64,000 bases of DNA, from NCBI RefSeq assembly GCF_029265695.1, contig NZ_JAJUHW010000007.1, positions 1 to 64,000 of the forward strand, written 5' to 3'. The position numbers and the translations under genes are program-made. This DNA comes from Gracilinema caldarium. Its GTDB lineage: Bacteria > Spirochaetota > Spirochaetia > Treponematales > Breznakiellaceae. This document shows positions 38,217-54,367 of this stretch, one piece after another. Position 1 is the first letter of the stretch, and each line of letters opens with the position of its first letter. The notes below the pieces were generated by a model. The model did no database searches and was not told the origin of the DNA. It saw only the letters and a list, made by a program, of their open reading frames with translations.

Positions 38217-39668
38217 TTAATGCTCTGAAAGATCAAAAAGAGTAGTATTGAATTTGTAGTCTGCTACATAGGCTGCAAGCCGTTCTCGTCTATCTTTCCT
38301 GACACTGAGTACAAGTTCATAGGGACTGCCAGCAGCGGCAATGTATTCCACAAAACCCATCAACTGGGTAAAAAGGGGCCATAATCCCCGGTTTTCATCC
38401 AGTTCCAGTTTGCCCATTTCATCAACATATACATAAATTGATTGGTAAGGTTCATGATTTTTCAATGCTGGTACCAGCCAATGAGCAAGGTTTTCAAAGG
38501 CCCCAGGATCGAATAGGTAAGGACCAAGCAGTATAGGATCTGATACCTTAAAGTCGCAAGACGACGCAGGCTCGCCCCTTTCGAGACTCGGCGAATCAGC
38601 CGAATGAAGCAGCTCGCTCGATCTGCAGAGGGCCTGTCTAAAAAAAGATGGCCCCGTCGCTTTAGTCCAATAAAAGGCTTCCAGGTCAAAGCCCAGCGCC
38701 CTGCCGTCATGCTTCCGGCCAGTCTGGACCTGGGACACCATAATAAATAGGGAAAAGACGAAAGCAGGCGATTCCATCAGGTTGATGAACGAACGGAAGG
38801 CGTTCTGCCTGAGCTGTGTCGTTTTTCCAGAACCGGGGCTGCCAGTGATAAGCCGGACGGAAGAAGGCCTGGCCCCTGGTGCAGGTTGTGGGGCAGGTTC
38901 TGGTGCAGCTGTTGGCGCAGCATCCTGTGCTGCCGTTTGCTGAATAACTTGTTGCTGTGACTTTTTTCCAAGATACGCGAGGGCGCTTATATATGATTCC
39001 AGGGTGTCCACATCAAAAACAACTGCCTGATCTTCAGTATCAACACTGAAGACCTGACATTGGTGAAGCACAGGCTTAAGAGAATCTCCATCAGAGGCTG
39101 ACTGTATAAGGGGAATTGCCGCTTGAGAAAACAGCACCGGATGGCCCGGCTGGTTTGGCGGGAGATAGATGGGACGTATGGCAATGGCATCCTTGGGGCA
39201 GTGTTCTAAGGGCCTATGAGTAAAGATAGTTTTATACCACTGGGGGCCAATGAGGGGCATGTCTGCATGGGCAACAAAAAACCAGGGGCTTTTAACATAG
39301 GGAAGCCCCGCCTTAATCGATGAAACCATGCCTTGATCCCACTGTTCATTACGAACAACGCGGACATACGGCCATCCTGCAAAACGTTTTTTCAATTCTT
39401 CGCCCCGAAAACCGGCGACCAGGATGACCCGGCATCCGGCAGCAAGGGCAGAGAAAACCGCTGCGTCAGCCAGCCAGCTTTCCTGAGGCTGGCCAGCCGG
39501 CAACACCGGCAGTTGGGTTACACCAGAGTAAACGCCAGAGTCAACAGAGGGCTGGCTAGAGCGGAACCAGGGGAGGCTGAGCTTCCATTCTCCAATACGA
39601 CGGGAAGCCCCGGCGGCGCAGATAATACAGTCCGCAAATTGGTTGCCTTTTTCAAATTCGTCATTCAT
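38217..39668 (-). CDS. MocA-like nucleotidyltransferase fused to THEP1-like NTPase
   Basis: A 483-residue two-domain protein. Residues about 10-230 are a molybdenum-cofactor cytidylyltransferase-like domain (IICAAGASRRIGEWK for the nucleotide loop, VAHADMPLIGPQWY for the metal-binding acidic site). After a Pro/Ala/Gln-rich linker (about 243-272), residues 273-483 form a P-loop NTPase (LITGSPGSGKTTQLRQ) with YVYVDEMGKLEL as its Walker B-like element. MocA makes the dinucleotide form of the cofactor used by xanthine dehydrogenase-type enzymes, which are encoded 3 kb away. The NTPase may act in cofactor insertion. The gene is divergent from the cupin gene. Confidence 0.82.
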   Translation of the reverse strand: MNDEFEKGNQFADCIICAAGASRRIGEWKLSLPWFRSSQPSVDSGVYSGVTQLPVLPAGQPQESWLADAAVFSALAAGCRVILVAGFRGEELKKRFAGWPYVRVVRNEQWDQGMVSSIKAGLPYVKSPWFFVAHADMPLIGPQWYKTIFTHRPLEHCPKDAIAIRPIYLPPNQPGHPVLFSQAAIPLIQSASDGDSLKPVLHQCQVFSVDTEDQAVVFDVDTLESYISALAYLGKKSQQQVIQQTAAQDAAPTAAPEPAPQPAPGARPSSVRLITGSPGSGKTTQLRQNAFRSFINLMESPAFVFSLFIMVSQVQTGRKHDGRALGFDLEAFYWTKATGPSFFRQALCRSSELLHSADSPSLERGEPASSCDFKVSDPILLGPYLFDPGAFENLAHWLVPALKNHEPYQSIYVYVDEMGKLELDENRGLWPLFTQLMGFVEYIAAAGSPYELVLSVRKDRRERLAAYVADYKFNTTLFDLSEH

Positions 39669-40213: not shown

Positions 40214-41467
40214 TCAGCCCTCTGAACCAGTTGCATCCTTCGGGCGGAGAATCAGGTTTAATACAACGCCGAAAATAGCAGACAAGCCCAGGCCGGAGAG
40301 GTTGATCGGGCCGAGCTTGAAGGTAGCGCCGCCGAGACCAAGGACGAGCATGGTGGCGGTAATAATCAGCACCTTGGGATTGGAAAGGTTAACCTTCGCA
40401 TCTACCATGTTCTTGATACCGATGGAGGAAATCATACCGAAGAGCAGGATAGAAATGCCGCCAATTACCGGAGCGGGAATCGTACCGATAAGAGCGGTAA
40501 ATTTGGGAACCAAGGAGAGGAGAATTGCGAAGATCGCGGCTATTCTCATGATGATGGGGTTGAACGCACCGGTAAGAGCTACTGCACCGGTATTTTCCGA
40601 ATAGGTGGTATTTGCAGGACCGCCGATTAGGGCAGCGAGGGATGTTGCAAGTCCGTCACCGATCAGGGTCCGATGAATGCCGGGATCCTTTATAAAGTCC
40701 TTGCCGACCACATTGCCGATAGCTAGGATATCCCCGAAATGCTCGACCATGGTTACTATCGCGATAGGCACCATAATAGAAATGGCTGAGGCGGAGAATT
40801 TGGGCAAGCTGAATTTCGGAATACCGATCCATGCAGCTTCGCCGACCGACTTAAAGTCTACAATACCGATAATGATAGACAGAATGTAACCCGCAATAAG
40901 CGCAATGAGAACCGGGAGGTTTGATGCAAATTTCCATCCAAATTTCGGGAATGCGATTTTTACAAATACGCCGACCGCAAAGGTAAAGAGCGATATAGCC
41001 CAGCAGCCATTGGTTCCAATTGCATCGGCGATAGCCTTGGCATTGGTGCCATTGGCATTCTGTACAGCCACCGGAGCAAGAATCATACCGATGAGTATGA
41101 TCATTGGACCGGTCACATGGGGTGGCAGAATCTTGTGGAGATTATCATAGGAGACAAACTTAAAGATAATTGCCACTACCACATAGAGCAAACCGGCGAT
41201 AACAATACCCCCAAGGGCATAGGGAATCCCTTCGCTTGCTCCGACTGCAATAATGCCAGGAATAAAAGCAAAGGAGCTTCCGAGGAATACCGGTACCTTA
41301 AAGCCGGTTACGATATGGAACAGCAAGGTTCCGATACCGGCGGCAAAGAGGGTTACGCCAACATCCAGCCCCGTCAAAATAGGGACCAAAACTGTTGCGC
41401 CAAACATTACGAACGTGTGCTGCAAGCCGAGAATCACGTTCCTTCCGGAGAGGTCTTTTTCTGCCAT
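40214..41467 (-). CDS. uraA: NCS2 uracil/xanthine permease
   Basis: A 417-residue permease of the nucleobase:cation symporter-2 family with about 12-14 membrane helices. LGLQHTFVMFGATVLVPILT at the start and GGPANTTYSENTGAVALTG (about 280-300) with its Glu are UraA-type signatures. Uracil and xanthine carriers cannot be separated safely by eye; the neighbouring xanthine dehydrogenase genes favour a purine substrate, while closest resemblance in motif is to uracil carriers. It has its own promoter in the 139-bp gap after the xdhA stop and a terminator after its end. Confidence 0.85.
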   Translation of the reverse strand: MAEKDLSGRNVILGLQHTFVMFGATVLVPILTGLDVGVTLFAAGIGTLLFHIVTGFKVPVFLGSSFAFIPGIIAVGASEGIPYALGGIVIAGLLYVVVAIIFKFVSYDNLHKILPPHVTGPMIILIGMILAPVAVQNANGTNAKAIADAIGTNGCWAISLFTFAVGVFVKIAFPKFGWKFASNLPVLIALIAGYILSIIIGIVDFKSVGEAAWIGIPKFSLPKFSASAISIMVPIAIVTMVEHFGDILAIGNVVGKDFIKDPGIHRTLIGDGLATSLAALIGGPANTTYSENTGAVALTGAFNPIIMRIAAIFAILLSLVPKFTALIGTIPAPVIGGISILLFGMISSIGIKNMVDAKVNLSNPKVLIITATMLVLGLGGATFKLGPINLSGLGLSAIFGVVLNLILRPKDATGSEG

Positions 41468-41606: not shown

Positions 41607-44063
41607 CTACGGCGTAATTGCCGCGTCGGGACTGTGCCGCCGGGTGGCCGGATCGGACCGGCAGGAACCGGAAGGCGTCTTGGTAATCCAGTTATCGATG
41701 GGCTCCTTGTTCTGTAAAGCCCGCCAGACATCTTCTGCCCGTATGGGCATATGGGTCAGTTCAGCGCCGACCGCCGCATCGATGGCGTTGGCCAGGGCCG
41801 GGGCGACGGATATCATGGGGTGTTCACCGACTCCACGGGCACCGTAGGGACCGTCTAGCTGGGGGGTCTCCACCGCAATGGTTTCTATCGCTTCCGGCAG
41901 ATCCTTGGCGGTGGGTATCTTGTTGTCCGTAAAGGAGGGGTTAAGAAGGTGCCCCTGCTTATCGTAGATATAGCCTTCGCAAATAGCGGTCCCGAGGCCC
42001 TGGATCATTCCGCCGATAGCCTGGCCGCGCACCATGTCCTCGTTAATCACCTTGCCGACATCAAAGGCGCTCGCTATTTTCAGTATCTTGTATTCACCCG
42101 TTTCAGGATCCACTTCCACGGTAATGCCGTGGGCTCCATAGGTCCAGTCCAGTGCAGGATTTCCCTCGCCTGTTTCCTTGTTCAGGTTGCTGAGGCCCTG
42201 GGCTATGTACTGGCCCACCCCAATAAGCGGACCGCCCACACCGTTGCCGTTGGGGTACGCATAACCGATAGAAATGCTTGCCCAGCTTACCGCTTCCGAA
42301 GGATGGTGTTTTACATAGATCTTATCCCCGTCGTGGGCAAGGTCCGCAGGGTTTGCTCGTAGAATCTGGGCTGCCACTTCATAACCCTTTTTCAGGAGAT
42401 CCTCCGCGGCAAGAATACAGGCGTTTCCGGAAAGAATGAGTCCCTTGGAAGCCACGGTTTGCCAGTCGTAGGGATCCCGATCTGTGTCCTTTTCTACTGT
42501 AACCTTTACTTTTTCCAGGGGGAATCCTAAGCGCTCCGCCACAATTTGCTGGAAGGCGGTAGTGGAACCTTGGCCGATTTCCATGAGCCCTACGTTGACA
42601 TTCACCGTACCGTCACTGTTCATTTTAATGACAGCCGAAGTTGCCGTGAAGGACGGCATAGCTGGGGCCTTGTGCAAAGCTGCAATGCCCTTACCTATCT
42701 TTCTACCCGTCTTCCTCTCCCGCTCCTTTTCTTCTTCGGTCAGGGTGCCGTAGTTAATTGCGTTTGCAACCGCATCAATACACTTGAGGACGTTTCCCGT
42801 ATGTTCCTGGATAACTTCCCCCGTTAGGGTTGTTGATCCGGGTCGCAGGGCATTTTTTCGGCGGAATTCCAGGGGATCCATGCCAATAGCCTTGGCAACC
42901 AGTTCCATATGCCGTTCAAGACCCCAGTGGAATTCTACATGTCCGAAACCACGATATGCAGTCCCATAGGGCTTATTGGTATAGACCGTGTAGGCATCGA
43001 CCCAGGCATTGGGAATATCGTAGGGGCCATTAGCAGAATAGCAAGAAGCCCTAGTTACGTTCACCGCATAGTCAGCATAAGCTCCTGCATCCCAGTACAT
43101 GGTCATTTTCTGGGCAAGAATACGACCGTCTTTAGCAACACCGGTCTTGATACGATAAGTCAGAGCACTGCGGCATGGAAGGAGGGTAAATTCCTCTTCA
43201 CGGCTGGCCTGGAATTTTACCGGCCGGCCTCCGGCCTTTCTAGACAGCACCGCTGTCAAAGGTTCGATATGAATTCCTGCCTTTCCGCCGAAACCTCCAC
43301 CCACATGGGGTACCAGAACCCGCACCTTGTTTAATGGAAGCTTAAAGGCATAACAGAACAGGTTCCGCACCGTAAAGGGAGACTGGGCACTAGACCAAAT
43401 CGTAATTTCATCATCCTTACCCCACTGAACAATTGCGACATGGGTTTCCATGGGAACGTGTTGGACCGACGGATTGGTATATTCCCGTTCGATAATCCAC
43501 TCCGATTCGGAAAACCCCTTTTCCACATCACCCTTGCGCATCTTATTCCATGTGGCAATATTTGTCCCCGGCTGGGGAGAAAAAGCGGGCTTAAAATAAT
43601 CATATTTTCCCAGATCCGGATGGATGAGGGGAGCGCCCTCTTTGATGGCATCCATGTGGTTTAGGATCGGCTCCAGGACCTCGTATTCCACCTCGATAAG
43701 GTCTACCGCTTTTTTGGCGATTTCCAGCGTGTCCGCTGCAACCGCTGCAACCGCTTCCCCATAATGGCGGACCTCTTTTTTAGCCAGGATATCCTTATCT
43801 ACAATATATAAACCAAGCTTGTAATTAAGCTCCTCGCCGGTCAGCACCGCCCGAACCCCCGGCAGAGCCTGGGCCTTGGATACATCAATATGCTTAATTC
43901 GTGCCCGGGCATGGGGACTTTTTTTCACCTGAGCATAAAGCATACCCGGCAGCACTATATCGCTCACATACCTGGCAGCTCCGGTAATTTTTTCCACCGC
44001 CTCTTCCCGGCGGACCGCCTTGCCGACATATTTAAGAGTTTTGGGATCGCTATTTTCCAGCAT
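41607..44063 (-). CDS. xdhA: Xanthine dehydrogenase-family molybdopterin subunit
   Basis: The 818-residue catalytic subunit of a molybdenum hydroxylase. VPHVGGGFGGKAG (about 255-267), GTAYRGFGHVEFHW and the near-C-terminal GARGVGEHPM (with the base glutamate) are cofactor and active-site segments. The loop reads AYRGFG and not the AYRCSFR of CO dehydrogenase, so this is not a Cox enzyme. QHVPMETHVA replaces the usual substrate-pocket glutamate region, so the substrate may be a purine or another N-heterocycle. It is the last gene of the operon and overlaps xdhC by 14 bp. Confidence 0.88.
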   Translation of the reverse strand: MLENSDPKTLKYVGKAVRREEAVEKITGAARYVSDIVLPGMLYAQVKKSPHARARIKHIDVSKAQALPGVRAVLTGEELNYKLGLYIVDKDILAKKEVRHYGEAVAAVAADTLEIAKKAVDLIEVEYEVLEPILNHMDAIKEGAPLIHPDLGKYDYFKPAFSPQPGTNIATWNKMRKGDVEKGFSESEWIIEREYTNPSVQHVPMETHVAIVQWGKDDEITIWSSAQSPFTVRNLFCYAFKLPLNKVRVLVPHVGGGFGGKAGIHIEPLTAVLSRKAGGRPVKFQASREEEFTLLPCRSALTYRIKTGVAKDGRILAQKMTMYWDAGAYADYAVNVTRASCYSANGPYDIPNAWVDAYTVYTNKPYGTAYRGFGHVEFHWGLERHMELVAKAIGMDPLEFRRKNALRPGSTTLTGEVIQEHTGNVLKCIDAVANAINYGTLTEEEKERERKTGRKIGKGIAALHKAPAMPSFTATSAVIKMNSDGTVNVNVGLMEIGQGSTTAFQQIVAERLGFPLEKVKVTVEKDTDRDPYDWQTVASKGLILSGNACILAAEDLLKKGYEVAAQILRANPADLAHDGDKIYVKHHPSEAVSWASISIGYAYPNGNGVGGPLIGVGQYIAQGLSNLNKETGEGNPALDWTYGAHGITVEVDPETGEYKILKIASAFDVGKVINEDMVRGQAIGGMIQGLGTAICEGYIYDKQGHLLNPSFTDNKIPTAKDLPEAIETIAVETPQLDGPYGARGVGEHPMISVAPALANAIDAAVGAELTHMPIRAEDVWRALQNKEPIDNWITKTPSGSCRSDPATRRHSPDAAITP

Positions 44064-44541
44064 ATTTCAATCCCTCCTTCTTTTCTAACTGTCCTGTGGC
44101 ATCGAGAACCGCTTCTATTATCTGTTGGTAGCCTGTACAGCGGCAAAAGTTGCCCTCCAGACCTTCCTTTATTTCTTCCACCGTTGGTTTCGGATGATTG
44201 CGGATAAGCTCCCGGGCAGACATGATCATACCGGAGGTGCAGAAACCGCACTGTACCGCATTGTTTCTATCAAAGGCTTCCTGCAGCTTCGAAAGGGTTC
44301 CGTCCTTAGCTTCGCCTTCGATGGTTTCTATTTCTGCGCCATCGGCCTCGACTGCCAAGACCATACAGGAATTAACGGTTTTTCCGTTCATAAAGACCGT
44401 ACAGGCACCGCACTCTCCTGCCCCGCAGCCTTCTTTGGTACCCGTAAGGCCCAGATCTTCCCGCAGGAACCTCAAGAGGGTTCGATTTTCCGCCACATCC
44501 CGTTCATAAAGTTCACCGTTAATTTTTACTGAGATTTTCAT
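44050..44541 (-). CDS. xdhC: Xanthine dehydrogenase-family iron-sulfur subunit
   Basis: A 163-residue protein with two [2Fe-2S] clusters: the plant-type ferredoxin site CGAGECGACTV (about 43-53, with a fourth Cys downstream) and the helical site CGFCTSGMIM plus CRCTGYQ. It moves electrons from the molybdenum centre to FAD. Start ATG 44541 overlaps the stop of xdhB (ATGA); the longer frame from 44610 lies wholly inside xdhB and is not used. Confidence 0.92.
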   Translation of the reverse strand: MKISVKINGELYERDVAENRTLLRFLREDLGLTGTKEGCGAGECGACTVFMNGKTVNSCMVLAVEADGAEIETIEGEAKDGTLSKLQEAFDRNNAVQCGFCTSGMIMSARELIRNHPKPTVEEIKEGLEGNFCRCTGYQQIIEAVLDATGQLEKKEGLKYAGK

Positions 44542-45356
44542 TTCCGCACCTCCGTAAGCAGCCGTTTTACAAATACTTCTACCATAAATTCCCGGTATTC
44601 CTTGCTGCACCGCACATCGCTAATGGGACTGATTATTTTTCGAGTCGCCGCAACCGCATCTTCTACCGAAATGGAAGCCGGCAGATCCGGCGTTACCACC
44701 GGAGTCGGAGCGGCGGAACTTACGGCAATTCGGAGTACATCGCCCTTAATACTCACGGCAACTCCAATAATGCCCAGATCATGCCCGTTGATGCGTTTTA
44801 GTTTGCGGTAGGCGCCCTTTGCCCCTGCAGTTGTCGGCGGGATAATGATTGATTCCAGCACCTCTGCTGGACTCAATACGGTCTTTTTTACCCCCGTAAA
44901 AAACTCTGTAAAGGGCACCACCCTTGTTCCCTTGCTGGATGCGATGACCGCCTGGGCCCCTAGACAGAGCAGAGCCGGTGCCATGTCCGAACAGGGAGAG
45001 GCGTTGACCACATTGCCCATAATGGTTGCCCGGTTCCGTACCTGGTAACTTGCCAGGTCATGGCCGCATTCCTGGAGGAGCGGATAATGATCCCGCACGG
45101 CCTGGTTCTTTAGTATTTCGTTGATGGTTACCGCGGGCCTAAAAACAAGTCCTTCAGTGGGACTGTAGGTAATCCCCTCGTAGCCAGATACCTTTTTTAT
45201 ATCCACCACAAGCTGGGGCTTCATAACCCCGTTTCTAATATTAACCAGCAAATCGGTCCCCCCCGCCAGGACCTTTGCATTGCCTTCATGGTCATCCAGA
45301 ATCTTAAAAAGCTCCTGTTTTGACCTTGGCCCTGCATAAGAAAATTGATGCAGCAT
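44538..45356 (-). CDS. xdhB: Xanthine dehydrogenase-family FAD subunit
   Basis: A 272-residue FAD-binding subunit. KVLAGGTDLLVNIRNG (about 27-42) and the TIMGNVVNASPCSDMAPAL region are the FAD-binding motifs of the CO dehydrogenase-flavoprotein family. It should reduce NAD+ or another acceptor. ATG 45356 with AAAGGAGG upstream is taken as start. It lies 14 bp downstream of the preceding carbamate kinase gene's TAA region. Confidence 0.9.
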   Translation of the reverse strand: MLHQFSYAGPRSKQELFKILDDHEGNAKVLAGGTDLLVNIRNGVMKPQLVVDIKKVSGYEGITYSPTEGLVFRPAVTINEILKNQAVRDHYPLLQECGHDLASYQVRNRATIMGNVVNASPCSDMAPALLCLGAQAVIASSKGTRVVPFTEFFTGVKKTVLSPAEVLESIIIPPTTAGAKGAYRKLKRINGHDLGIIGVAVSIKGDVLRIAVSSAAPTPVVTPDLPASISVEDAVAATRKIISPISDVRCSKEYREFMVEVFVKRLLTEVRK

Positions 45357-45369
45357 AGCGCCTCCTTTT

Positions 45370-46314
45370 TTATAGTACAAATCTCGTACCCGACTCTCCC
45401 CGCAGAGAGCGGATTATATTTTCCGAATTGGTTATAATTGCTTCCTTGCCTCCGTTCTTAAGGTAATCGATGACAGCCTTCACCTTGGGCTCCATGCTGC
45501 CCTTGCCAAACTGACCCTCTTTCAGGTATTGCTCTGCCTCCGCTATGGTGAGCTTATCGAGCCAGCGGCGGGTAGGTTTGGTAAAGTCTAGGGCAACCTT
45601 TTCCACCTCTGTGGAGATGATAAAAAGGTCAGCTCCGATAGACGAAGCTAGCACGCTGGATGCAAGGTCCTTGTCGATAACCGCTTCCAAGCCAGAAATA
45701 GTGCCGTCCTCGGCTTCTGCAACAGGCACTCCGCCGCCACCAACGGCGATGACCGTCTCGCCCTGTTCCAGAAGTTCCCGGATTATGCTTTCCTGGATTA
45801 TACGTTTGGGCCGGGGGCTCGGCACGACCCGCCGCCAGCCGCGGCCAGAGTCTTCCACCACGGACCAGCCGTCCTGTTCCTGCCGCATTTTGGCGGTGGC
45901 CTCGTCCATAAAGGAACCAATAGGCTTGGTCGGATTCTTAAAAGCCGGATCATTGGCGTCCACCACCGTTTCGGTGACCAGGGCCACCGCCCGGTTGGGC
46001 ATGCCCCGGCGGCGGAACTCGTTATACAGGGAGGTCTCAAACATGTAACCGATCGAACCCTGGGTATTACTGCCGATATAATCAAGCGGCGCAGGAGGCA
46101 CCTCCTTGGCACTGATTTCGTTTTTCCGGAGTAAAAAACCTACCTGAGGACCGTTTCCGTGGGTTATCGCCACCGAATACCCAGCCTGTATAAGATCGAC
46201 AATATAGGGAACCGTGAACCGAACCGATTCAAACTGGTCCTGAAGACCTGTCTTTTTTGGATCCCGGATCAGGGCATTTCCGCCCACGGCAACTATTGCA
46301 ATTTTTCGTGCCAT
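45370..46314 (-). CDS. allK: Carbamate kinase (AllK/ArcC-type)
   Basis: A 314-residue amino-acid-kinase-fold enzyme: carbamoyl phosphate + ADP to carbamate + ATP. IVAVGGNALI at the start, ITHGNGPQVGFLL (about 48-60), VIAVGGGGVPV and AVIDKDLASS are carbamate-kinase motifs. ATG 46314 has AAGGAGG upstream and overlaps the stop of the DUF2877 gene. In E. coli the allantoin pathway ends with such a kinase taking carbamoyl phosphate from oxamate carbamoyltransferase. The same partnership is expected here because all the subunits lie in the same operon. Confidence 0.92.
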   Translation of the reverse strand: MARKIAIVAVGGNALIRDPKKTGLQDQFESVRFTVPYIVDLIQAGYSVAITHGNGPQVGFLLRKNEISAKEVPPAPLDYIGSNTQGSIGYMFETSLYNEFRRRGMPNRAVALVTETVVDANDPAFKNPTKPIGSFMDEATAKMRQEQDGWSVVEDSGRGWRRVVPSPRPKRIIQESIIRELLEQGETVIAVGGGGVPVAEAEDGTISGLEAVIDKDLASSVLASSIGADLFIISTEVEKVALDFTKPTRRWLDKLTIAEAEQYLKEGQFGKGSMEPKVKAVIDYLKNGGKEAIITNSENIIRSLRGESGTRFVL

Positions 46315-47339
46315 CAAGACCTCCTTTGTTCCACCGAGGCAATTCCAAACAGGAAACCGGTGGCACTGTCCAAACCGGAACTGTGCCCGTATTGGGCAAG
46401 CTGGACAATTTCTTGGCGGATATCCTGGGATGGGTCAACAAAGGCTTTCGCAAAGCGCACCAGAATGCTGCTGAATCGGCCCAGGCTTGCCATATATAGA
46501 AAACTTTTAGAAACAATACCGGTCCTGTCTCTCGGATCCGTGATTGTGGAGGGGACAGTCCCCAATGTGGCCGCAATCCCCCATAACCAGGTCTCTACTG
46601 CTAAAGCACTTATCTGCTCTTCATAATCAGGATGGGCTGCGTACATGAGGAGGGCTATGGCAAGGCCGCAGAGAAAATCGTCCCCCGAAGGAGTTAAGCC
46701 CTGGCCGAGGCCAAGCAGCTTAAGCGAAGCCGTCAAAGCTACAGAGGGTGAACCGGCGACTAGAGAATTGCAAAGTGTATTTGCAACAGATTCAAACCGG
46801 CCGCTATACCCACTCGTTTCTTCAGGAAGAAAATTCACCAGGTGCTCTTTGGAAAGCCAGCGAAGCTCCGTATTTTGTTCCGCCTGGAGTGCTTCCAGGG
46901 CTATTCCGGCTTCCTCCAGCCGCTGCTCCAGCATTCCTGCACTAAGCGCCAGTGGGGGCGGACATTCATCAACCTGTGAATTCTTCTTAATATGATCAAA
47001 GCTTATTGAAATATGAGAACCGAACGAGAGGGTTTGTCCGTTAAATCTGCCGGCAATCCCAGGTTCTAGACTTAAGGCGTTGAAACGAACCGCTTGGCTC
47101 CCAGAACCGGCAACAAGGACCGATAGGGGATGCAGAAGAGCAGGCTGTGTAACCAGGGTATAGAGAATCGGTTTATCAGGTACAATAAGATTCAGCGCAT
47201 TGGTATATACAGAATGTACCGTGCATTCAAAGGGTTCCGAGGGGAATAGGGAACCTGCAATGTAGGCATCTATTCTGCTCACTGGACCGGACCAGCATTC
47301 AGTACTTTCCGATCCCTGGCTATACCAAACCGTGCGCAC
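46314..47339 (-). CDS. allH: DUF2877 protein, AllH-like subunit of carbamoyltransferase
   Basis: A 341-residue DUF2877 protein. SVALTASLKLLGLGQGLTPS and GDDFLCGLAIALLMY (about 205-240) form the family signature; a separate, more variable N-terminal half precedes it. E. coli AllH (YlbF) is one of three proteins required for oxamate carbamoyltransferase activity, together with FdrA and YlbE; all three are represented in this operon. It overlaps the GntR gene by 20 bp and the kinase gene by 1 bp. Confidence 0.85.
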   Translation of the reverse strand: MRTVWYSQGSESTECWSGPVSRIDAYIAGSLFPSEPFECTVHSVYTNALNLIVPDKPILYTLVTQPALLHPLSVLVAGSGSQAVRFNALSLEPGIAGRFNGQTLSFGSHISISFDHIKKNSQVDECPPPLALSAGMLEQRLEEAGIALEALQAEQNTELRWLSKEHLVNFLPEETSGYSGRFESVANTLCNSLVAGSPSVALTASLKLLGLGQGLTPSGDDFLCGLAIALLMYAAHPDYEEQISALAVETWLWGIAATLGTVPSTITDPRDRTGIVSKSFLYMASLGRFSSILVRFAKAFVDPSQDIRQEIVQLAQYGHSSGLDSATGFLFGIASVEQRRS

Positions 47340-48000
47340 GGATAAGCGCTTCCTTTAGGGCGTTAGATACCTTGTCCTTGCCCCATAGTATGTTCTCCCG
47401 GGTTAATTCCTTCGCCCTCTGCACATCGCAGTGCTCTAGAGCAGCAAGGATCTCCAAATGGTCCTGGCAAGTTTTTTTAAGCCGCTCAGGATCGGTAATG
47501 TCCGAAAGCCGTACAAAATGTATGCTCCGGTCTATATCTTTTAAAATTTTCTGCATTACCCTGTTTCCCGCTTCCGCAGCCAGGGCTTCGTGAAAGTGTT
47601 CGTCTTCTAATGCTGCTTCATGGGCCATGGCCGGCAGGGCGTCCAGCAGTTCCTTCCAGCGCTTTCTGAGCTGCCTAAGAATTCCAGAGCTCATACCGCG
47701 TTCACAGATTTGCTCAATAACCGCCAGTTCCAGTACGAGCCGGGTATCGTAGAGGTCCTCCAGTTCCTGCAGGTCAATCTTGCGAACCCGGTACCCCTTT
47801 CGTTCTGCCTTGTCCACAAGACCCGCCTCCGCAAGCATGTTCAGAGCCTCGCGGATAGGACTGCGGCTTACCCCGAATTCCACACAGAGTTCTTCCTCGG
47901 TAAGCCGATGGCCAGGCGGATAGAGCCATGTGCGGATCCGTTCAGATAATGATTCATACACTTCTGCACTAAGATTCCTTCCGCTCCGTCCGTCTGCCAT
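47320..48000 (-). CDS. GntR-family regulator (FadR/FCD subgroup)
   Basis: A 226-residue regulator. The N-terminal winged HTH (RIRTWLYPPGHRLTEEELCV, then SRSPIREALNMLAEAGLV) and the C-terminal FCD ligand domain (about 80-215, with DEHFHEALAAEAGN and the metal-binding His/Asp set) are clear. It is encoded within the operon, so it is probably an autoregulator responding to a pathway intermediate. The TTGTATACAA palindrome at the operon promoter is a typical FCD-type operator. Confidence 0.9.
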   Translation of the reverse strand: MADGRSGRNLSAEVYESLSERIRTWLYPPGHRLTEEELCVEFGVSRSPIREALNMLAEAGLVDKAERKGYRVRKIDLQELEDLYDTRLVLELAVIEQICERGMSSGILRQLRKRWKELLDALPAMAHEAALEDEHFHEALAAEAGNRVMQKILKDIDRSIHFVRLSDITDPERLKKTCQDHLEILAALEHCDVQRAKELTRENILWGKDKVSNALKEALIRAHGLV

Positions 48001-48009
48001 CAGATCCTC

Positions 48010-48393
48010 CTATTTAAACACGAATACTTTAACCGGCTTGCCAGGCCGTTCGTCGGACTCCTCCACCGTGGCGGTGAGCTTCATCCCAATAACAGGATTT
48101 TCCACCTCAAGCCGTCCCGATGCCCGCAGTCCATTTTCGAACTGGACTATACCAAAGAGGAGATACTTTTTGGTATACCCTTCGGGCAAATTCCACGCCC
48201 TGGTCCAGGTAAGCAGTGTGCAGGGGCCTTCGAGATCGAAGGTTTCCCAGCCCTTACCGGTTACCGGATCCCGACGGGCGCTGCATTTTGAACAGATCAT
48301 CGGTGCCGGATAATAGATGGCCCCGCAACTTTGGCATTTATAGGCCTTTATTTTGGGGGCCTTTACTTCGTATTGGCTAAAATCGATAAACAT
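48010..48393 (-). CDS. DUF35 OB-fold/zinc-ribbon protein
   Basis: A 127-residue protein with a rubredoxin-like zinc ribbon (YKCQSCGAIYYP ... MICSKC, about 19-37) followed by an OB fold (about 50-125). DUF35 proteins are obligate partners of thiolase-fold enzymes, for example in archaeal thiolase/HMG-CoA synthase complexes and in the steroid aldolase Ltp2-ChsH2. It lies 9 bp downstream of the thiolase-fold gene, so a complex is almost certain. Confidence 0.88.
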   Translation of the reverse strand: MFIDFSQYEVKAPKIKAYKCQSCGAIYYPAPMICSKCSARRDPVTGKGWETFDLEGPCTLLTWTRAWNLPEGYTKKYLLFGIVQFENGLRASGRLEVENPVIGMKLTATVEESDERPGKPVKVFVFK

Positions 48394-48402
48394 ATCTGCC
48401 CC

Positions 48403-49602
48403 CTATTCCTTTGCGCAAATCACCGCTACGACGTTGTTGCCGAATCCGCCGAAATTGACGGACATGCCGTATTTGGGGTCCTTTACCTGGCGGCCCGGTT
48501 CAGCTTCGCCCCGGAGCTGGCGGACCAGTTCTACTACCTGGGAAACCCCGGTAGCGCCAACAGGATGACCCTTGGATTTAAGCCCTCCCGATGTGTTAAT
48601 GGGAAGCCGGCCGTCTATTTTTGTCTCTCCCTTCCGGACCGCAAGATAACTCTTGCCCCGCTCAAAGAAACCAACCTCTTCACTGATGGCCAGTTCCAGA
48701 ATGGAAAAGGCGTCATGGAGCTCGGCAAAAGAGATGTCCTGGGGGCCTACCCCAGCCATTTTGTAAGCCTTTTCGGCTGCAATCCGAACCGCATTAAGCT
48801 GGAGCGGATCCTTCCGGTTGTGGACACAGTGGGTGTCGGTAGCGCTGGCAATGCCCGCTATCCGGATGGGCTTTTTCTTAAAGTCCTTGACCCGGGGGCT
48901 GTCCATATTGACCAGCAAGACCGCCGCAGCACCGTCCGAAACGGGACAGGTGGAATACATTCGCAGGGGTTCAGCCACATAGTTGTTGACCACCTCTGCT
49001 TCGGGACCATCGGCAATGGCTTCGATATTAACCGGCGCCTGGATATGGGCATATTTGTTTTTGGCTCCGTTGTCATGGTTTTTAACCGCCAACAGCGCCA
49101 GGTCCCGTTCGGTAAGACCGTATTTTTCCATATAGAGCCGGGTAAACATACCGCCGAAGGCCGGCAAGGTAAGACCCATGTTGTACTCTGCTTCCTGGTG
49201 CAGCATGGTGGCCACAATATCGGTGGACATCCAGCCGCTTACTTTGCGCATGACTTCGCCGCCTACCACGAGCACCACATCGCACATACCGGAGGCAATG
49301 GCCATATAGCCGATTTTGATAGCGCTGGCCCCGGAAGCAGGCCCGTTTTCTACCAGTTCAGCGGGTACAGGCTCCATGTCCATACGGCTAATGAGAGAAG
49401 AGGCTACGGCAGATTGATGAACAAACAGGCCCGACGCCATGTTTCCCACAATGACCTGGTCAATTTCTTTTCTCTTTTCTAGATAACCCGCATCCTGGAG
49501 GGCGTCGGTGGCTGCATAGGCCATGACGTCCGCCAGATCGTATTCCGATGAATTTCCGAACCGGGTGTGCCCGATTCCAACAATACCGACTCTGGCGGCC
49601 AT
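48403..49602 (-). CDS. Thiolase-fold protein lacking the nucleophilic cysteine
   Basis: A 399-residue SCP-x/archaeal-type thiolase homologue (VGIVGIGHTRFGNSSEYDLA at the start). The late active-site motifs are kept: LHDAFSILE and GGLKSKGHPVGATG with its His. The position of the catalytic Cys (VEAACASG in ordinary enzymes) reads VENGPASG, so Cys is replaced by Pro, and the last motif is NFGGFGNN with no Cys. It therefore cannot use the normal acyl-enzyme mechanism. By analogy with Ltp2, which works as an aldolase with a DUF35 partner, a C-C lyase role is possible. It is encoded in the purine/ureide operon. Confidence 0.88.
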   Translation of the reverse strand: MAARVGIVGIGHTRFGNSSEYDLADVMAYAATDALQDAGYLEKRKEIDQVIVGNMASGLFVHQSAVASSLISRMDMEPVPAELVENGPASGASAIKIGYMAIASGMCDVVLVVGGEVMRKVSGWMSTDIVATMLHQEAEYNMGLTLPAFGGMFTRLYMEKYGLTERDLALLAVKNHDNGAKNKYAHIQAPVNIEAIADGPEAEVVNNYVAEPLRMYSTCPVSDGAAAVLLVNMDSPRVKDFKKKPIRIAGIASATDTHCVHNRKDPLQLNAVRIAAEKAYKMAGVGPQDISFAELHDAFSILELAISEEVGFFERGKSYLAVRKGETKIDGRLPINTSGGLKSKGHPVGATGVSQVVELVRQLRGEAEPGRQVKDPKYGMSVNFGGFGNNVVAVICAKE

Positions 49603-49605
49603 AGC

Positions 49606-50292
49606 TTACCTCTTAAATCCTGGAATTTGCGGATATTCGCTGGGCATAATGAGCTTTTCGGCGGACTTAAGGTCTTCTTCTGAGACAGGCCTTGTACCGG
49701 TGCATTTTACAGCCTTTACATCGTTCCAGAGCTTCCGGGTCAGCACATAGGTGGGAACACCACCCAATTCGTGCCGGACCTGGGGATACAGGTGGGACCG
49801 GTCTTCCAGCTGATATTCGATCATCCATCGCTTAAACCCATTGGGGCTTTCAGCCACAATGTACACCTCATCTTCCCCGAGGATATCGATATGATGTTCC
49901 ATTTTTGCCGCAAAAAGCTGGGCTCCGACCCTGAGACCCCGTTTAATGGTAAGGGTATGAAGGCTCATACCGAGCTTGTCATCCACATGGCGACTTGTGA
50001 CGATACCGGCAATGACGCCGTTAATTGCGCCGACAATGACAAATTCGTTGGCAACCCGGTAGCGGTACCAGCCAAGAATTTCCGAATACATACGGGCGGC
50101 TACAATGTCATAAAAGTCCGCAGCAACACCGATAAGGGGGGCTACGGTACCGAGCAGTACACCGACTTCGTCCCGGCGGGCCTCGCGGACTACCATTTTT
50201 TCGCCCGAAGCCAGGGTAATTACCTTGGGAGGATAGGGCTTAAGCTCTACCTCGGGGGGTCTCAGTTTTTTCTCCATCTCATCGATTGCCAT
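49606..50292 (-). CDS. Operon protein of unknown function (possibly GNAT-like)
   Basis: A 228-residue protein I do not recognise. After a Pro-rich start, residues about 30-190 have an alternating pattern that includes VREARRDEVGVLLGTVAPLI, EFVIVGAINGVIAGIVTSRH and GLRVGAQLFAAKMEHHI; this recalls an acetyltransferase-like (GNAT) fold without its clear acetyl-CoA loop. It lies 12 bp from the cyclase gene and 3 bp from the thiolase-fold gene, so it must belong to the same process. Confidence 0.7.
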   Translation of the reverse strand: MAIDEMEKKLRPPEVELKPYPPKVITLASGEKMVVREARRDEVGVLLGTVAPLIGVAADFYDIVAARMYSEILGWYRYRVANEFVIVGAINGVIAGIVTSRHVDDKLGMSLHTLTIKRGLRVGAQLFAAKMEHHIDILGEDEVYIVAESPNGFKRWMIEYQLEDRSHLYPQVRHELGGVPTYVLTRKLWNDVKAVKCTGTRPVSEEDLKSAEKLIMPSEYPQIPGFKR

Positions 50293-50303
50293 GATTTGCT
50301 CCT

Positions 50304-51182
50304 CTATTTATGGTTCTTTCGGGCTTCTTCATGAAGCCATGGGTTCTTTGCACCGGCCACATCGCCGAACCGGGTAAGTTCTGCCTTGGCCTTTTTCTTC
50401 ATCAGTTCTTCGTAGCGGTCGTCTTCCACATGGGCCACAATGCGGGCAATGGAAGATTCGCCGTCCACAAAGCGCCAGGGATAGCAGCCGATGACTGCCC
50501 GCTGGTTTAAAAGCAGGTCTATATCGCCGCCCACGCATTCGGCATGAATAATGCCCTTGTCGAACATCTCAATATGCATGAGCTGGTATTTGTCGTCGCT
50601 GAAAAATTCATCCAGGCTCTTGCCATATTTCTTTTGGAAATGCGCATCGCATTCTTTGGCTTGCCGGGGCATCCATTCCCTGATCTTGGTGTTCATAGGA
50701 TGGTCTGCGCTACCGCAGTCCACACCGATCCAGCGAAGCTTTTTCTTTTTTGCCCATTCGGCAAACTCACGGTCTGGTCCGGGATGTTTAATCATGTAGC
50801 GGATTTCGTCTCCCGTCGGCTGGTCCCAGCCGTAATGATGAAAGCCGGTATGGATAATAAGGATGTCTCCCTCTTTTACTTCCACCCGTTCCTCTACCAT
50901 TTTGGAGGTATACACATCGTAATCGCCGCAAACATCGGAAAGGTCTACGATGGCACCTTCGTGGACCAGGAAGTCCATATCGAGGCTCGCAATGTCCTTA
51001 CCGGGGGTATAGAAATGGATTTCGCCATCCAGATGGGTTCCGATATGATTGGAGTGGGTAACCACTTGTCCGTTTGCGCCGTTGGGAGCAAGGCGCTTAA
51101 AGTATTGAACCTGCAAGGGAATGTAGGTCGGCCATGGCGGGGTTCCTACACCTAGAGGTATGGTTAAATCGATTACTTTCAT
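50304..51182 (-). CDS. Cyclase-family metal-dependent hydrolase
   Basis: A 292-residue member of the kynurenine formamidase/isatin hydrolase (cyclase, PF04199) family. HIGTHLDGEIHF (about 46-57) is the metal-binding HxGTHxDxxxH motif and GVDCGSADHPMNT (about 150-162) supports the active site. Members open cyclic or formyl amides, so ring opening of a purine-derived or other N-heterocycle is a likely step. It is the second gene of the operon, after the FdrA-YlbE fusion; a GGAGG site precedes ATG 51182. Confidence 0.85.
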   Translation of the reverse strand: MKVIDLTIPLGVGTPPWPTYIPLQVQYFKRLAPNGANGQVVTHSNHIGTHLDGEIHFYTPGKDIASLDMDFLVHEGAIVDLSDVCGDYDVYTSKMVEERVEVKEGDILIIHTGFHHYGWDQPTGDEIRYMIKHPGPDREFAEWAKKKKLRWIGVDCGSADHPMNTKIREWMPRQAKECDAHFQKKYGKSLDEFFSDDKYQLMHIEMFDKGIIHAECVGGDIDLLLNQRAVIGCYPWRFVDGESSIARIVAHVEDDRYEELMKKKAKAELTRFGDVAGAKNPWLHEEARKNHK

Positions 51183-51232: not shown

Positions 51233-54200
51233 TTAATGAGAATCTGCTGCTGCATAGGCAGCAGCTAAAGCTTTGAGTGCATCCTGGTAACAGTTGGCCG
51301 GCGGCTTTACGAGGCCTGCACCGACCATGCCGATGCCAGGTTTTTTATGGGCAATACCGGTATTGATGACGGGAAGGATTCCCTTTTCAACCACCTTTCG
51401 TACATCGATAGCTGTGGGAGTGCCCCGGAAATCCAGAATCGGGATCTTGTACTCCCGGTTTTCCGCCAGGGTAATTTCGTACATTTCCCGGGTAAAGCGC
51501 AGGGCGTCTTCGGGACTGCCTCCGACAAATTTCACGATAGCCGGGGCTGCCGCCATGGCAAAGCCGCCGATACCGCTCGTTTCGGTAATAACCGAGTCTC
51601 CAATATCCGGCGCGGCATCCTCGGGACCGAAGCCCGGCAAATACAGTCCTTTTACTATCCCCGCAGGGCCGGTAAACCAGCGGCCCTTGAGCCCCGCTAC
51701 CTGGATGCCAAATTCGGTACCGTTCCGACCCTGGGCGGTAATAACCGTGCTGCCAGGAATTCCCTCTGCGGCCATCAGGACCGCTTTAGCCGAAGGCATG
51801 GTAAGATTCAGGAAGAAGTGATCATTCTGGTGCATAAAGGTAAGAACCCGGGAAAGAGCTTCCTTTGGCTCGTCGAGCATGACAAGATAGGGGGCAAGTT
51901 CCCGGATTACTAGAGAGGTTCCTGCTCGGTTCCGGTTGTGTCCCTCGTCGCCCATTTGTAGGGCCTGAACAATCAGGCTCCGCATGTCTACCGGTCCGTG
52001 CTTTTCTATTGCCTTCTGGAGTATCGGCGCCAGTTCCCCCTCCATCCAGCGGAGCCGGTCCAGCACTTCCTGGGAATAGGCTCCATAGCGGAGAACCTTG
52101 CCGAGACCCTCATTCAAGGTTGCATAGGCCCGGTTACCATAGGTTTCATTTTCGATAATCCAGACCGGCATACGGCTCGTCATGATTCCCGCCATAGGGC
52201 CCACGGCTGCGTGTTCCTGACAGGGCTCAAAATCAATCTTACCCGAAGCCGCCAGGGCTTCCGCTTCTTCTTCTGTTTTAGCCAGCCCCTCGTAAAGGAT
52301 GCCGCCAATAACGGCTCCCCGCATGGGACCGCACATCTTATCCCAGGTAATAGGCGGCCCCGCATGGAGGAACAGGTTCGGCCGCATGCCCGGGACTACG
52401 TCCTTTGCAATCCCAAGTCCCTTTATAAGCGGCTTACCCGAAAGTATCCGTTCCACCGCTTCCCCATTAGCCTTATCAATATCTACGGTCGAACGACTTT
52501 CCAGCTGGTCCAGAACCTGGATTAGTTCGGAATTTCCCCCCGCAGGAGGCATCCAATCCACATGAACCACTGGCGTATCACAGGATGCCAGATTTTCCGC
52601 AAAGGATTCGAGCCCTAGATTGATGACCCTAAGGCCCTGGTTAAAGAGGGCAAGGATATGTTCAGGTCCCGGCCCGGCGTCAGATGCTGAAGGACCAGCA
52701 ACTCCCACTGCGGCTTGGGCAGCTTTTTTCGCCCCAGTCTGTCCGGCTGCCGCTTGGTTTTGGAATGCGGGACTCGTCTTACCGGTTACCTTTTCCATAA
52801 TTTTTAGTGCCAACAAGGAAGCCTGGTAGTTGGAGGGCATAACAATAACCCCCGCACTGCGTAGCTTTGCTACCTGTGAATCGAAACCCTGGAAATCCCC
52901 GGGAGTTCCCGTTACAGAGGCAATCACTGAAAGGTAGCCGCCCCGTTTTTCGGCGGCTTCTTTAGCCTTTTTAATAGAAGTAAGCATAGCACCCGCCGGA
53001 TCCGGATGGGAACCGTAGCCCAGGACACAGTCCAACAACATGACCGCAATTTCCGGGTCATCCCGTTCAGCATCGATCCGTTCAGTCCTTGTGCTTGGGT
53101 CAATCATGGGATGGGGCCGGCCCACCGTAAAGACGTCGTCCCCCAGGTCAACAATGGTGTGCCCGATAGATTTTTTGGGATTCGGAAGCACAAAGGCCGG
53201 ATCTGTGTGGTTGTTGGAATAGACTGCACCGGTAAGACCATGGAGCAGTATCCAGGCTTCGTCGGTAAGGGTGCCGCCGGTATAATAGCCCCGGATATAT
53301 TTTTGATTTTTCGCCATACGACGAGTTTCTTGCTCCACCAGGGCTTCTATGTCTTTCTTTGAAAGGTCAAAGGGCCAATTCCGGCGGCTATTTTCATCAA
53401 CCTGTTTCCCCTCTGCAAGGGATACGGCCCATCGGGCAGCTTCTTCCAAATTGGAAGCGAAATGAATTGAAGAACTAGCGGCAATCAGTTCATTAAGTCC
53501 TATAAAATGAACCACCGCGGGTTTTCCGGTTTTTTCAAGGGCCTGCACTACCTTAGCTGCCACATCGGAAGCAGGCGGCTTAGAAACAATAAGAATTGCC
53601 TTTGTGTTCGGATCCGCCCCGAGGGCTTCAATGCCCATGAGCATGGTGGCCCCCCCGACCTGGGCATTTTTAAGGTCCCGGCCACCGGTGCCGATGCCCT
53701 GGCTGACACCGCTTCCAAAACGGTCGATAAGGCAGGAAACTTCCTGGAGGCCTGTCCCTGCCGCGGCCACTATACCGACCGGTCCCCGGTCTACCACATT
53801 GGCAAAACAAATCGGCTTACCATCTATAATAGCTGTTCCACAATCGGGACCCATAACAAGGAGTCCCTTTTGGCGGGCTATTTTTTTTAAGGCAATTTCG
53901 TCTTCCAGTGAAACATTGTCAGAAAACAGCATGACATGAAGCCCCTTATTAAGGGCCTTACGGACTTCCCGGGGGGCATACATACCGGGTACTGATATGA
54001 CAGCCATATTTGCATCGGGTATGAGATCAAGGGCGCTGTCTAAGGTCTTGCTGCGGGGCAGCCCAGATCCCGCAACAGAAGTAGTGCTAGCCTTTTTTTT
54101 ACCGCCCAGCATCTCATCTACGATTTTGAGAGCTTCGTCAAAGACTTTCTGCGAAGCACAATCCAGGGCAACCACAAGGTCAGCGGGGCTGACTTCTTTC

Positions 54201-54367
54201 AGGGATTCAAGACTATAGCCCTGTTCTTTAAGGAGTTCCAGGTTCATGGGAGTACCCATGGTTACTGTGGCATCTATGATATCGGACCGTTCCTTAAGAT
54301 CCTTGCTCAGGAGCATTAAAAAAACCGAATCCACATAGGTGTCTTTGCGAACATGTATCCTTTTCAT
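51233..54367 (-). CDS. fdrA: FdrA-YlbE fusion, carbamoyltransferase of oxamate type
   Basis: A 1044-residue fusion. Residues 1-about 540 are FdrA-like (succinyl-CoA-synthetase-related): VISVPGMYAPREVRKAL, LLVMGPDCGTAII, VGIVAAAGTGLQE. An Ala/Gly-rich linker (about 545-580) joins a YlbE/DUF1116 domain (about 585-1044) with VHVDWMPPAGG, MCGPMRGAVIGGILYEGLA and GDEGHNRNRAGTSLV. In E. coli these are separate proteins (AllF and AllG) that with AllH convert carbamoylated oxamate (oxalurate) plus phosphate to oxamate and carbamoyl phosphate. The fusion fixes their stoichiometry. It is the first gene of the operon; AGGGGTGAG precedes the ATG. Confidence 0.88.
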   Translation of the reverse strand: MKRIHVRKDTYVDSVFLMLLSKDLKERSDIIDATVTMGTPMNLELLKEQGYSLESLKEVSPADLVVALDCASQKVFDEALKIVDEMLGGKKKASTTSVAGSGLPRSKTLDSALDLIPDANMAVISVPGMYAPREVRKALNKGLHVMLFSDNVSLEDEIALKKIARQKGLLVMGPDCGTAIIDGKPICFANVVDRGPVGIVAAAGTGLQEVSCLIDRFGSGVSQGIGTGGRDLKNAQVGGATMLMGIEALGADPNTKAILIVSKPPASDVAAKVVQALEKTGKPAVVHFIGLNELIAASSSIHFASNLEEAARWAVSLAEGKQVDENSRRNWPFDLSKKDIEALVEQETRRMAKNQKYIRGYYTGGTLTDEAWILLHGLTGAVYSNNHTDPAFVLPNPKKSIGHTIVDLGDDVFTVGRPHPMIDPSTRTERIDAERDDPEIAVMLLDCVLGYGSHPDPAGAMLTSIKKAKEAAEKRGGYLSVIASVTGTPGDFQGFDSQVAKLRSAGVIVMPSNYQASLLALKIMEKVTGKTSPAFQNQAAAGQTGAKKAAQAAVGVAGPSASDAGPGPEHILALFNQGLRVINLGLESFAENLASCDTPVVHVDWMPPAGGNSELIQVLDQLESRSTVDIDKANGEAVERILSGKPLIKGLGIAKDVVPGMRPNLFLHAGPPITWDKMCGPMRGAVIGGILYEGLAKTEEEAEALAASGKIDFEPCQEHAAVGPMAGIMTSRMPVWIIENETYGNRAYATLNEGLGKVLRYGAYSQEVLDRLRWMEGELAPILQKAIEKHGPVDMRSLIVQALQMGDEGHNRNRAGTSLVIRELAPYLVMLDEPKEALSRVLTFMHQNDHFFLNLTMPSAKAVLMAAEGIPGSTVITAQGRNGTEFGIQVAGLKGRWFTGPAGIVKGLYLPGFGPEDAAPDIGDSVITETSGIGGFAMAAAPAIVKFVGGSPEDALRFTREMYEITLAENREYKIPILDFRGTPTAIDVRKVVEKGILPVINTGIAHKKPGIGMVGAGLVKPPANCYQDALKALAAAYAAADSH

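Follow-up and report, generated by a model that had tools for sequence, protein, structure and literature searches.

A conserved GNAT-thiolase-DUF35 triad with a thiolase-fold member lacking its nucleophilic cysteine, encoded in a Spirochaete operon most likely devoted to pyrimidine-type ring breakdown

A thiolase-fold protein with proline where the nucleophilic cysteine belongs raises the question of which reaction, if any, it performs. The protein is encoded in a 64,000-nucleotide stretch of the Gracilinema caldarium contig NZ_JAJUHW010000007.1 (GCF_029265695.1), referred to here as the window, which is part of a genome assembly of 3.04 Mb in 88 contigs (95% complete) with Treponema and Spirochaete assemblies as its nearest named relatives. 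Thiolase-fold proteins without this cysteine are usually annotated as thiolases, as here ('thiolase domain-containing protein'), and a few have turned out to be different enzymes. An initial annotation of the window gave the coordinates of the thiolase-fold and DUF35 reading frames correctly. It did not mention a GNAT-like gene at 49606-50292, an invariant Cys219, or the carbamoyltransferase operon and module swap described below. The triad consists of the following genes, the GNAT-like gene lying 3 bp upstream of the thiolase gene and the DUF35 gene being separated from it by 9 bp:

49606-50292, minus strand: GNAT-like protein, third triad member (228 aa; CoA-loop-like RGLRVGA, invariant S110/H112/T113)
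48403-49602, minus strand: thiolase-fold protein lacking the nucleophilic Cys (399 aa; nucleophile position occupied by P88, H296 and H346 kept, invariant C219)
48010-48393, minus strand: DUF35 protein (127 aa; invariant zinc ribbon C20/C23/C34/C37, OB domain)

The description of a thiolase fold with a genuine DUF35 partner was borne out by Pfam, by structure matching and by gene adjacency in the triad loci. Pfam matched Thiolase_N and Thiolase_C_1 in the 399-aa protein, and the nearest NCBIfam model, the unspecific PRK06064 'thiolase domain-containing protein', scored 409.5 bits, short of its cut-off of 420. The AlphaFold2 model (mean pLDDT 95.6) confirmed the fold, with the archaeal acetoacetyl-CoA thiolase 6esq_A as the closest structure (Z 63.2, 1.3 Å over 385 residues, 38% identity), followed by P. 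furiosus thiolase (Z 58.4) and then a Phl-type acyltransferase.

Residues were assigned by alignment with relatives and with the Zoogloea thiolase, the catalytic numbering 89/316/348/378/247 of which fits the sequence used. The nucleophile loop reads V84-E-N-G-P-A-S-G, and P88 falls on Zoogloea Cys89, confirming the exchange of Cys for Pro that had been read from the motif VENGPASG. Proline occupies this position in 44/44 orthologues from several phyla; among the non-orthologous relatives the residue is Cys in 45 and Ser in 3. Further aligned pairs are His296-Asn316, His346-His348 and Cys219-Ser247. H296 (in HDAF) and H346 (in GHP) are invariant in the Pro clade, HDAF occurring throughout except for a single HDPF. 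The second cysteine is missing from both of its known places, F384 (beside Zoogloea Leu377, i.e. at Cys378) and A298 (HDxF motif). The initial annotation was therefore right that the second cysteine is absent and the His motifs are kept, but the loss of the HDxF cysteine is not distinctive, being shared by Thermococcus thiolases (HDAF, L047-L049) and the P. furiosus thiolase 7yvy. Because HDAF is common to archaeal thiolases, the missing nucleophile is the defining change, and of the two losses it alone sets the window protein apart. Of the sequence and structure features of a thiolase, the fold and the GHP histidine are present and the nucleophilic cysteine is absent.

The nucleophile is truly missing, and its absence is biologically maintained. 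A quickly computed maximum-likelihood tree gave a single origin, with one change and a support of 100, for the Pro group, which was represented by 39 rows once the set had been thinned. The dN/dS of the thiolase gene was 0.011 against a relative with a 98% identical protein and 0.052 against a 91% relative, with synonymous sites close to saturation in these comparisons; the values argue for strong purifying selection on the gene rather than for a decaying copy. A sequencing error or local pseudogene was ruled out by the proline in all 44 orthologues together with dN/dS far below 1. A cysteine shifted within the nucleophile loop was ruled out as well: VENGPASG contains none. A plasmid origin was rejected, the best plasmid matches being haloarchaeal 'thiolase family' proteins that are 40-44% identical and non-orthologous. 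Among 295 genomes of Flavonifractor's order, the starting genome alone gave a match, indicating sparse spread there. Serine at the nucleophile position was seen in an Elusimicrobia relative (L043:1491-2672, ETASSSG), which is sister to the Pro clade and adjoins an FdrA/AllG/cyclase/cytosine-deaminase cluster with no GNAT or DUF35 neighbours. It was also seen in two distant Spirochaete thiolase relatives (L100 and L101, DATSASG), in which the Cys loss is apparently separate on the tree.

The initial annotation had taken the Ltp2-ChsH2 aldolase as the nearest precedent. Ltp2 (Z 48.9) and Sal (Z 48.4) are structurally farther from the model than the archaeal thiolase, and the first PDB match of the DUF35 profile was likewise from the archaeal complex (6esq_E, E 1.5e-13, positions 11-120, supporting an OB fold). 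Catalytic residues have been published for Sal (Tyr302/Cys304, YDCY) and for Ltp2 (Tyr294 of YDHF, and Tyr344; PMC12329534). The window protein has the DUF35 partner of this group but HDAF, and one orthologue HDPF, in place of YD(H/C)(F/Y), and it keeps GHP as thiolases do; membership in the Ltp2/Sal group thus fails on the catalytic motif, which makes the aldolase or lyase mechanism first suggested unlikely. Were the protein nonetheless a retro-aldolase of the Ltp2/Sal type, cleaving a beta-hydroxyacyl-CoA from a nitrogen-containing substrate, the common fold, the DUF35 partner and the missing nucleophilic cysteine would be accounted for; given the motif, the nearer archaeal thiolase and an operon in which no hydratase or acyl-CoA ligase was seen, we consider this very improbable.

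Pfam recognised a ChsH2-type zinc ribbon in the window DUF35 protein and PF12172 in 20/20 members, and PF01796 (OB domain) in 5/20, with the window protein below cut-off. The GNAT-like protein is 58-98% identical in 21 of the 22 aligned relatives and 31% identical in the remaining, archaeal one (L030), where its gene is divergently transcribed. Acetyltransf_1 (PF00583) matched only 1/23 members, and the loop reads RGLRVGA against the usual RxxGxG/A. The protein was modelled at a pLDDT of 89.5, and all the top PDB matches listed were GNAT acetyltransferases or proteins related to them (E 2e-6 for the best, TM about 0.5), placing it in the GNAT fold. The three genes are adjacent in every locus read through all of them, with the exceptions of L030 and a decayed locus in genome G194. 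In G194, which belongs to the same genus as the window (L085, L129), sequence matching window positions 49089-50587 is absent; the loss covers the GNAT gene and most of the N-terminal part of the thiolase. The cyclase is partial, and DUF35 and GntR remain. In a limited library of literature, no description was found of the triad, nor of genes for an anaerobic barbiturate route.

The triad is embedded in an operon that contains, together with probable support functions:

51233-54367, minus strand: FdrA(AllF)-AllG fusion, carbamoyltransferase subunits (1044 aa)
50304-51182, minus strand: cyclase-family (PF04199) hydrolase, a kynurenine formamidase relative; proposed ring-opening amidohydrolase
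47320-48000, minus strand: GntR/FCD transcriptional regulator
46314-47339, minus strand: AllH-type carbamoyltransferase subunit (PF11392)
45370-46317, minus strand: carbamate kinase (TIGR00746 above cut-off)
44538-45380, minus strand: molybdenum hydroxylase FAD subunit, XdhB-like
44050-44610, minus strand: molybdenum hydroxylase 2Fe-2S subunit, XdhC-like
41607-44063, minus strand: molybdenum hydroxylase large subunit, XdhA/4-HBCR-like, with no match at equivalog level
40214-41467, minus strand: NCS2 permease for nucleobases, closest to uracil permease though under that equivalog's cut-off
38217-39668, minus strand: MocA-like molybdenum cofactor cytidylyltransferase fusion, probable cofactor support (below cut-off)

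The AllFGH set is complete, with matches to FdrA (PRK06091), AllG and AllH and to arcC. FdrA and AllG, fused in the window, are separate genes in the related cassettes L136, L137, L141 and L144. Cyclases were of two kinds when that of the window (50304-51182) was compared with those of L028, L029, L043 and L145-L147, one of about 290 aa (79-100% identical) and one of about 270 aa (51-60%). The nearest solved chains to the hydroxylase were CO dehydrogenase, 4-hydroxybenzoyl-CoA reductase and similar enzymes, which are not decisive for its substrate, and none of the solved relatives, whether of cyclase or hydroxylase, fixes the ring substrate.

The operon most likely breaks down pyrimidine-type rings. 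A uracil-like base would enter via the NCS2 permease and be oxidised to barbiturate by the molybdenum hydroxylase; the cyclase-family hydrolase would open the ring to give ureidomalonate; AllF/G/H would phosphorolyse this to malonamate and carbamoyl phosphate, from which carbamate kinase would make ATP; and the triad would turn the resulting C3 compound, acid or amide, into acetyl-CoA. Since ureidomalonate is oxalurate with one additional CH2, an AllFGH-type reaction would be chemically parallel. A link to pyrimidines is suggested by the uracil-type permease and by the neighbours of two related clusters: in L140 the core is followed by MMSDH (methylmalonate-semialdehyde dehydrogenase), carbamoylase and dihydropyrimidinase genes (over cut-offs) plus an aminotransferase gene, and in L043 core genes are accompanied by a member of the uridine-phosphorylase family and by a gene resembling cytosine deaminase. 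No dihydropyrimidinase over cut-off was found in the window genome. Counting against the proposal, triads of Verrucomicrobia and Lentisphaerae (L008, L009, L010, L011 and L025) stand without a ring operon, beside a divergently transcribed nitrilase-family (PF00795) gene that is 78-86% identical to that of L009.

A C2 route is a serious rival to this pathway, although we assign it a low probability. A hydantoin- or parabanate-like ring would yield oxalurate and then oxamate and carbamoyl phosphate, and the downstream module would handle oxamate or oxalate. AllFGH is proven on these compounds, the E. coli enzyme converting oxalurate and phosphate to oxamate and carbamoyl phosphate (PMC11326118), and the CoA-transferase that replaces the triad (see below) is nearest to a CoA:oxalate model, though below cut-off. 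Against this, the operon showed no allantoin genes, among the genes of the CoA-transferase clusters no oxalyl-CoA decarboxylase was noticed, and related clusters have pyrimidine genes at their flanks.

What the triad contributes to the pyrimidine-type route is suggested by the genes found in its place. The cyclase was present in 27/392 Spirochaete-phylum genomes, 13 of which have the triad (or, in G194, its remains), 11 a class III CoA-transferase, 3 neither and none both; under random assignment such a lack of overlap has a P of about 3e-5, a value that exaggerates the significance as the genomes share ancestry. In the 11 genomes the CoA-transferase adjoins the cyclase, with an amidase beside it wherever the locus was read far enough, and the cyclase of the shared core is 82-91% identical. 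Genome G379 has the triad, although others of its family have the CoA-transferase. Genome-wide, PF02515 was detected in 0/11 triad genomes tested and in 6/6 CoA-transferase genomes. From this swap, the absence of PF02515 and the amidase pattern, the triad probably does the CoA-transferase's job and perhaps that of the amidase too. Its substrate could be malonate or malonamate: an amidase of the same type lies between cyclase and GNAT genes in the triad loci L146 and L147, whereas amidase (PF01425) was found nowhere in three triad genomes. The nitrogen-containing acyl substrate envisaged by the initial annotation agrees with the nitrogen-rich context of the pathway, but the GNAT-like gene, the carbamoyltransferase operon and the module swap point away from an aldol substrate and towards the processing of a small C3 acyl product.

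An acyl-CoA-forming step of this kind would also suit a relocated nucleophile: Cys219, on the opposite side of the pocket, would take over the acyl group, and the protein would act as a CoA-acyltransferase or in amide thiolysis (malonamate + CoA -> malonyl-CoA + NH3) rather than as a decarboxylase. Cys219 is invariant in the clade (44/44), whereas 38 of the 45 Cys-type relatives have Ser there, as does the Zoogloea enzyme, in which Ser247 is presumably a pocket residue. This reading is nevertheless unlikely, as three Cys-type relatives also have Cys at this position, so that Cys219 is not unique to the Pro clade, and we know of no thiolase with its nucleophile at the equivalent position.

Our favoured reading, held tentatively, is that the triad forms one complex ending pyrimidine-type catabolism, with the thiolase fold as a KSQ-like malonyl-CoA decarboxylase. 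KSQ proteins have a thiolase-superfamily fold in which the cysteine is replaced by Gln and two His are kept. They are ketosynthase-like decarboxylases (PMC10646177), and by analogy the window protein, with its two His and no nucleophile, would resemble them. DUF35 would dock the partners and shape the CoA tunnel, the GNAT-like subunit would transfer malonyl onto CoA or off it, and the thiolase-fold protein, which retains His296/His346 but has no nucleophile, would decarboxylate malonyl-CoA in the manner of Cys-to-Gln KSQ proteins. A GNAT-like domain, that of CurA, also decarboxylates malonyl-CoA (PMC3075265). The thiolase-like TbSLP decarboxylates malonyl-CoA weakly (kcat 0.005 per s), but the Cys-less thiolase-fold protein Sal does not (PMC12329534), which counts against such a role, as does the replacement of Cys by Pro and not Gln. 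A search for the malonyl-CoA decarboxylase (MCD) family gave no match, but the positive control was likewise silent, so that this is no evidence of the enzyme's absence.

The chemistry might instead lie in the GNAT-like enzyme, with the thiolase fold a dead scaffold that merely binds CoA and docks it. The lost nucleophile speaks for this; GNAT-like folds can themselves decarboxylate or transfer malonyl/acetyl groups (PMC3075265); and in the archaeal and Phl complexes DUF35 scaffolds keep thiolase joined to its partner enzymes (PMC12329534). Both catalytic histidines, His296 and His346, are invariant within conserved motifs, and the gene is under very strong constraint, which makes us regard a scaffold as rather unlikely. 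Broader than the KSQ-like reading, and more doubtful, is the proposal that the triad is a new complex converting malonamate or malonate directly to acetyl-CoA, without CoA-transferase or separate malonyl-CoA decarboxylase, through the His pair or a relocated Cys219 of the thiolase fold, and thereby completes an undescribed energy-conserving oxidative pyrimidine route.

The findings of greatest value here are the GNAT-thiolase-DUF35 triad and the fact that CoA-transferase and amidase stand in for it in related bacteria. The third partner is conserved, the operon is defined and the swap is a natural experiment, which makes the reaction testable with a short list of substrates; if the pathway is right, these are genes for oxidative pyrimidine breakdown that conserves ATP via carbamoyl phosphate.

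Among known systems, the archaeal thiolase/DUF35/HMG-CoA synthase complex (6ESQ) has the closest thiolase structure, the closest DUF35 and a partner gene upstream of the thiolase. It differs in having Cys where the window protein has Pro, and in Thermococcus L047 the gene before the thiolase reads, by eye, as HMG-CoA synthase, in contrast to the GNAT-like protein here. ST0096, a thiolase-like protein of Sulfolobus (4YZO; Z 55.5, 40% identity), lacks the cysteine as the window protein does, with Ser and not Pro aligned there. The steroid aldolases Ltp2-ChsH2(DUF35) and Sal-Shy(DUF35) share the fold without nucleophilic Cys and the DUF35 partner, but have YDHF/YDCY instead of HDAF and are structurally farther; no hydratase partner was seen here. 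The likeness to KSQ, in the replaced Cys and the two His, is an analogy: KSQ has Gln in a ketosynthase and works on carrier-protein thioesters inside polyketide synthases, whereas the window protein has Pro in a thiolase. The E. coli AllFGH and carbamate kinase system corresponds to the window operon in FdrA, AllG, AllH and carbamate kinase; here, FdrA and AllG are fused, allantoin genes were not seen, and the set is joined to a molybdenum hydroxylase, a cyclase and the triad.
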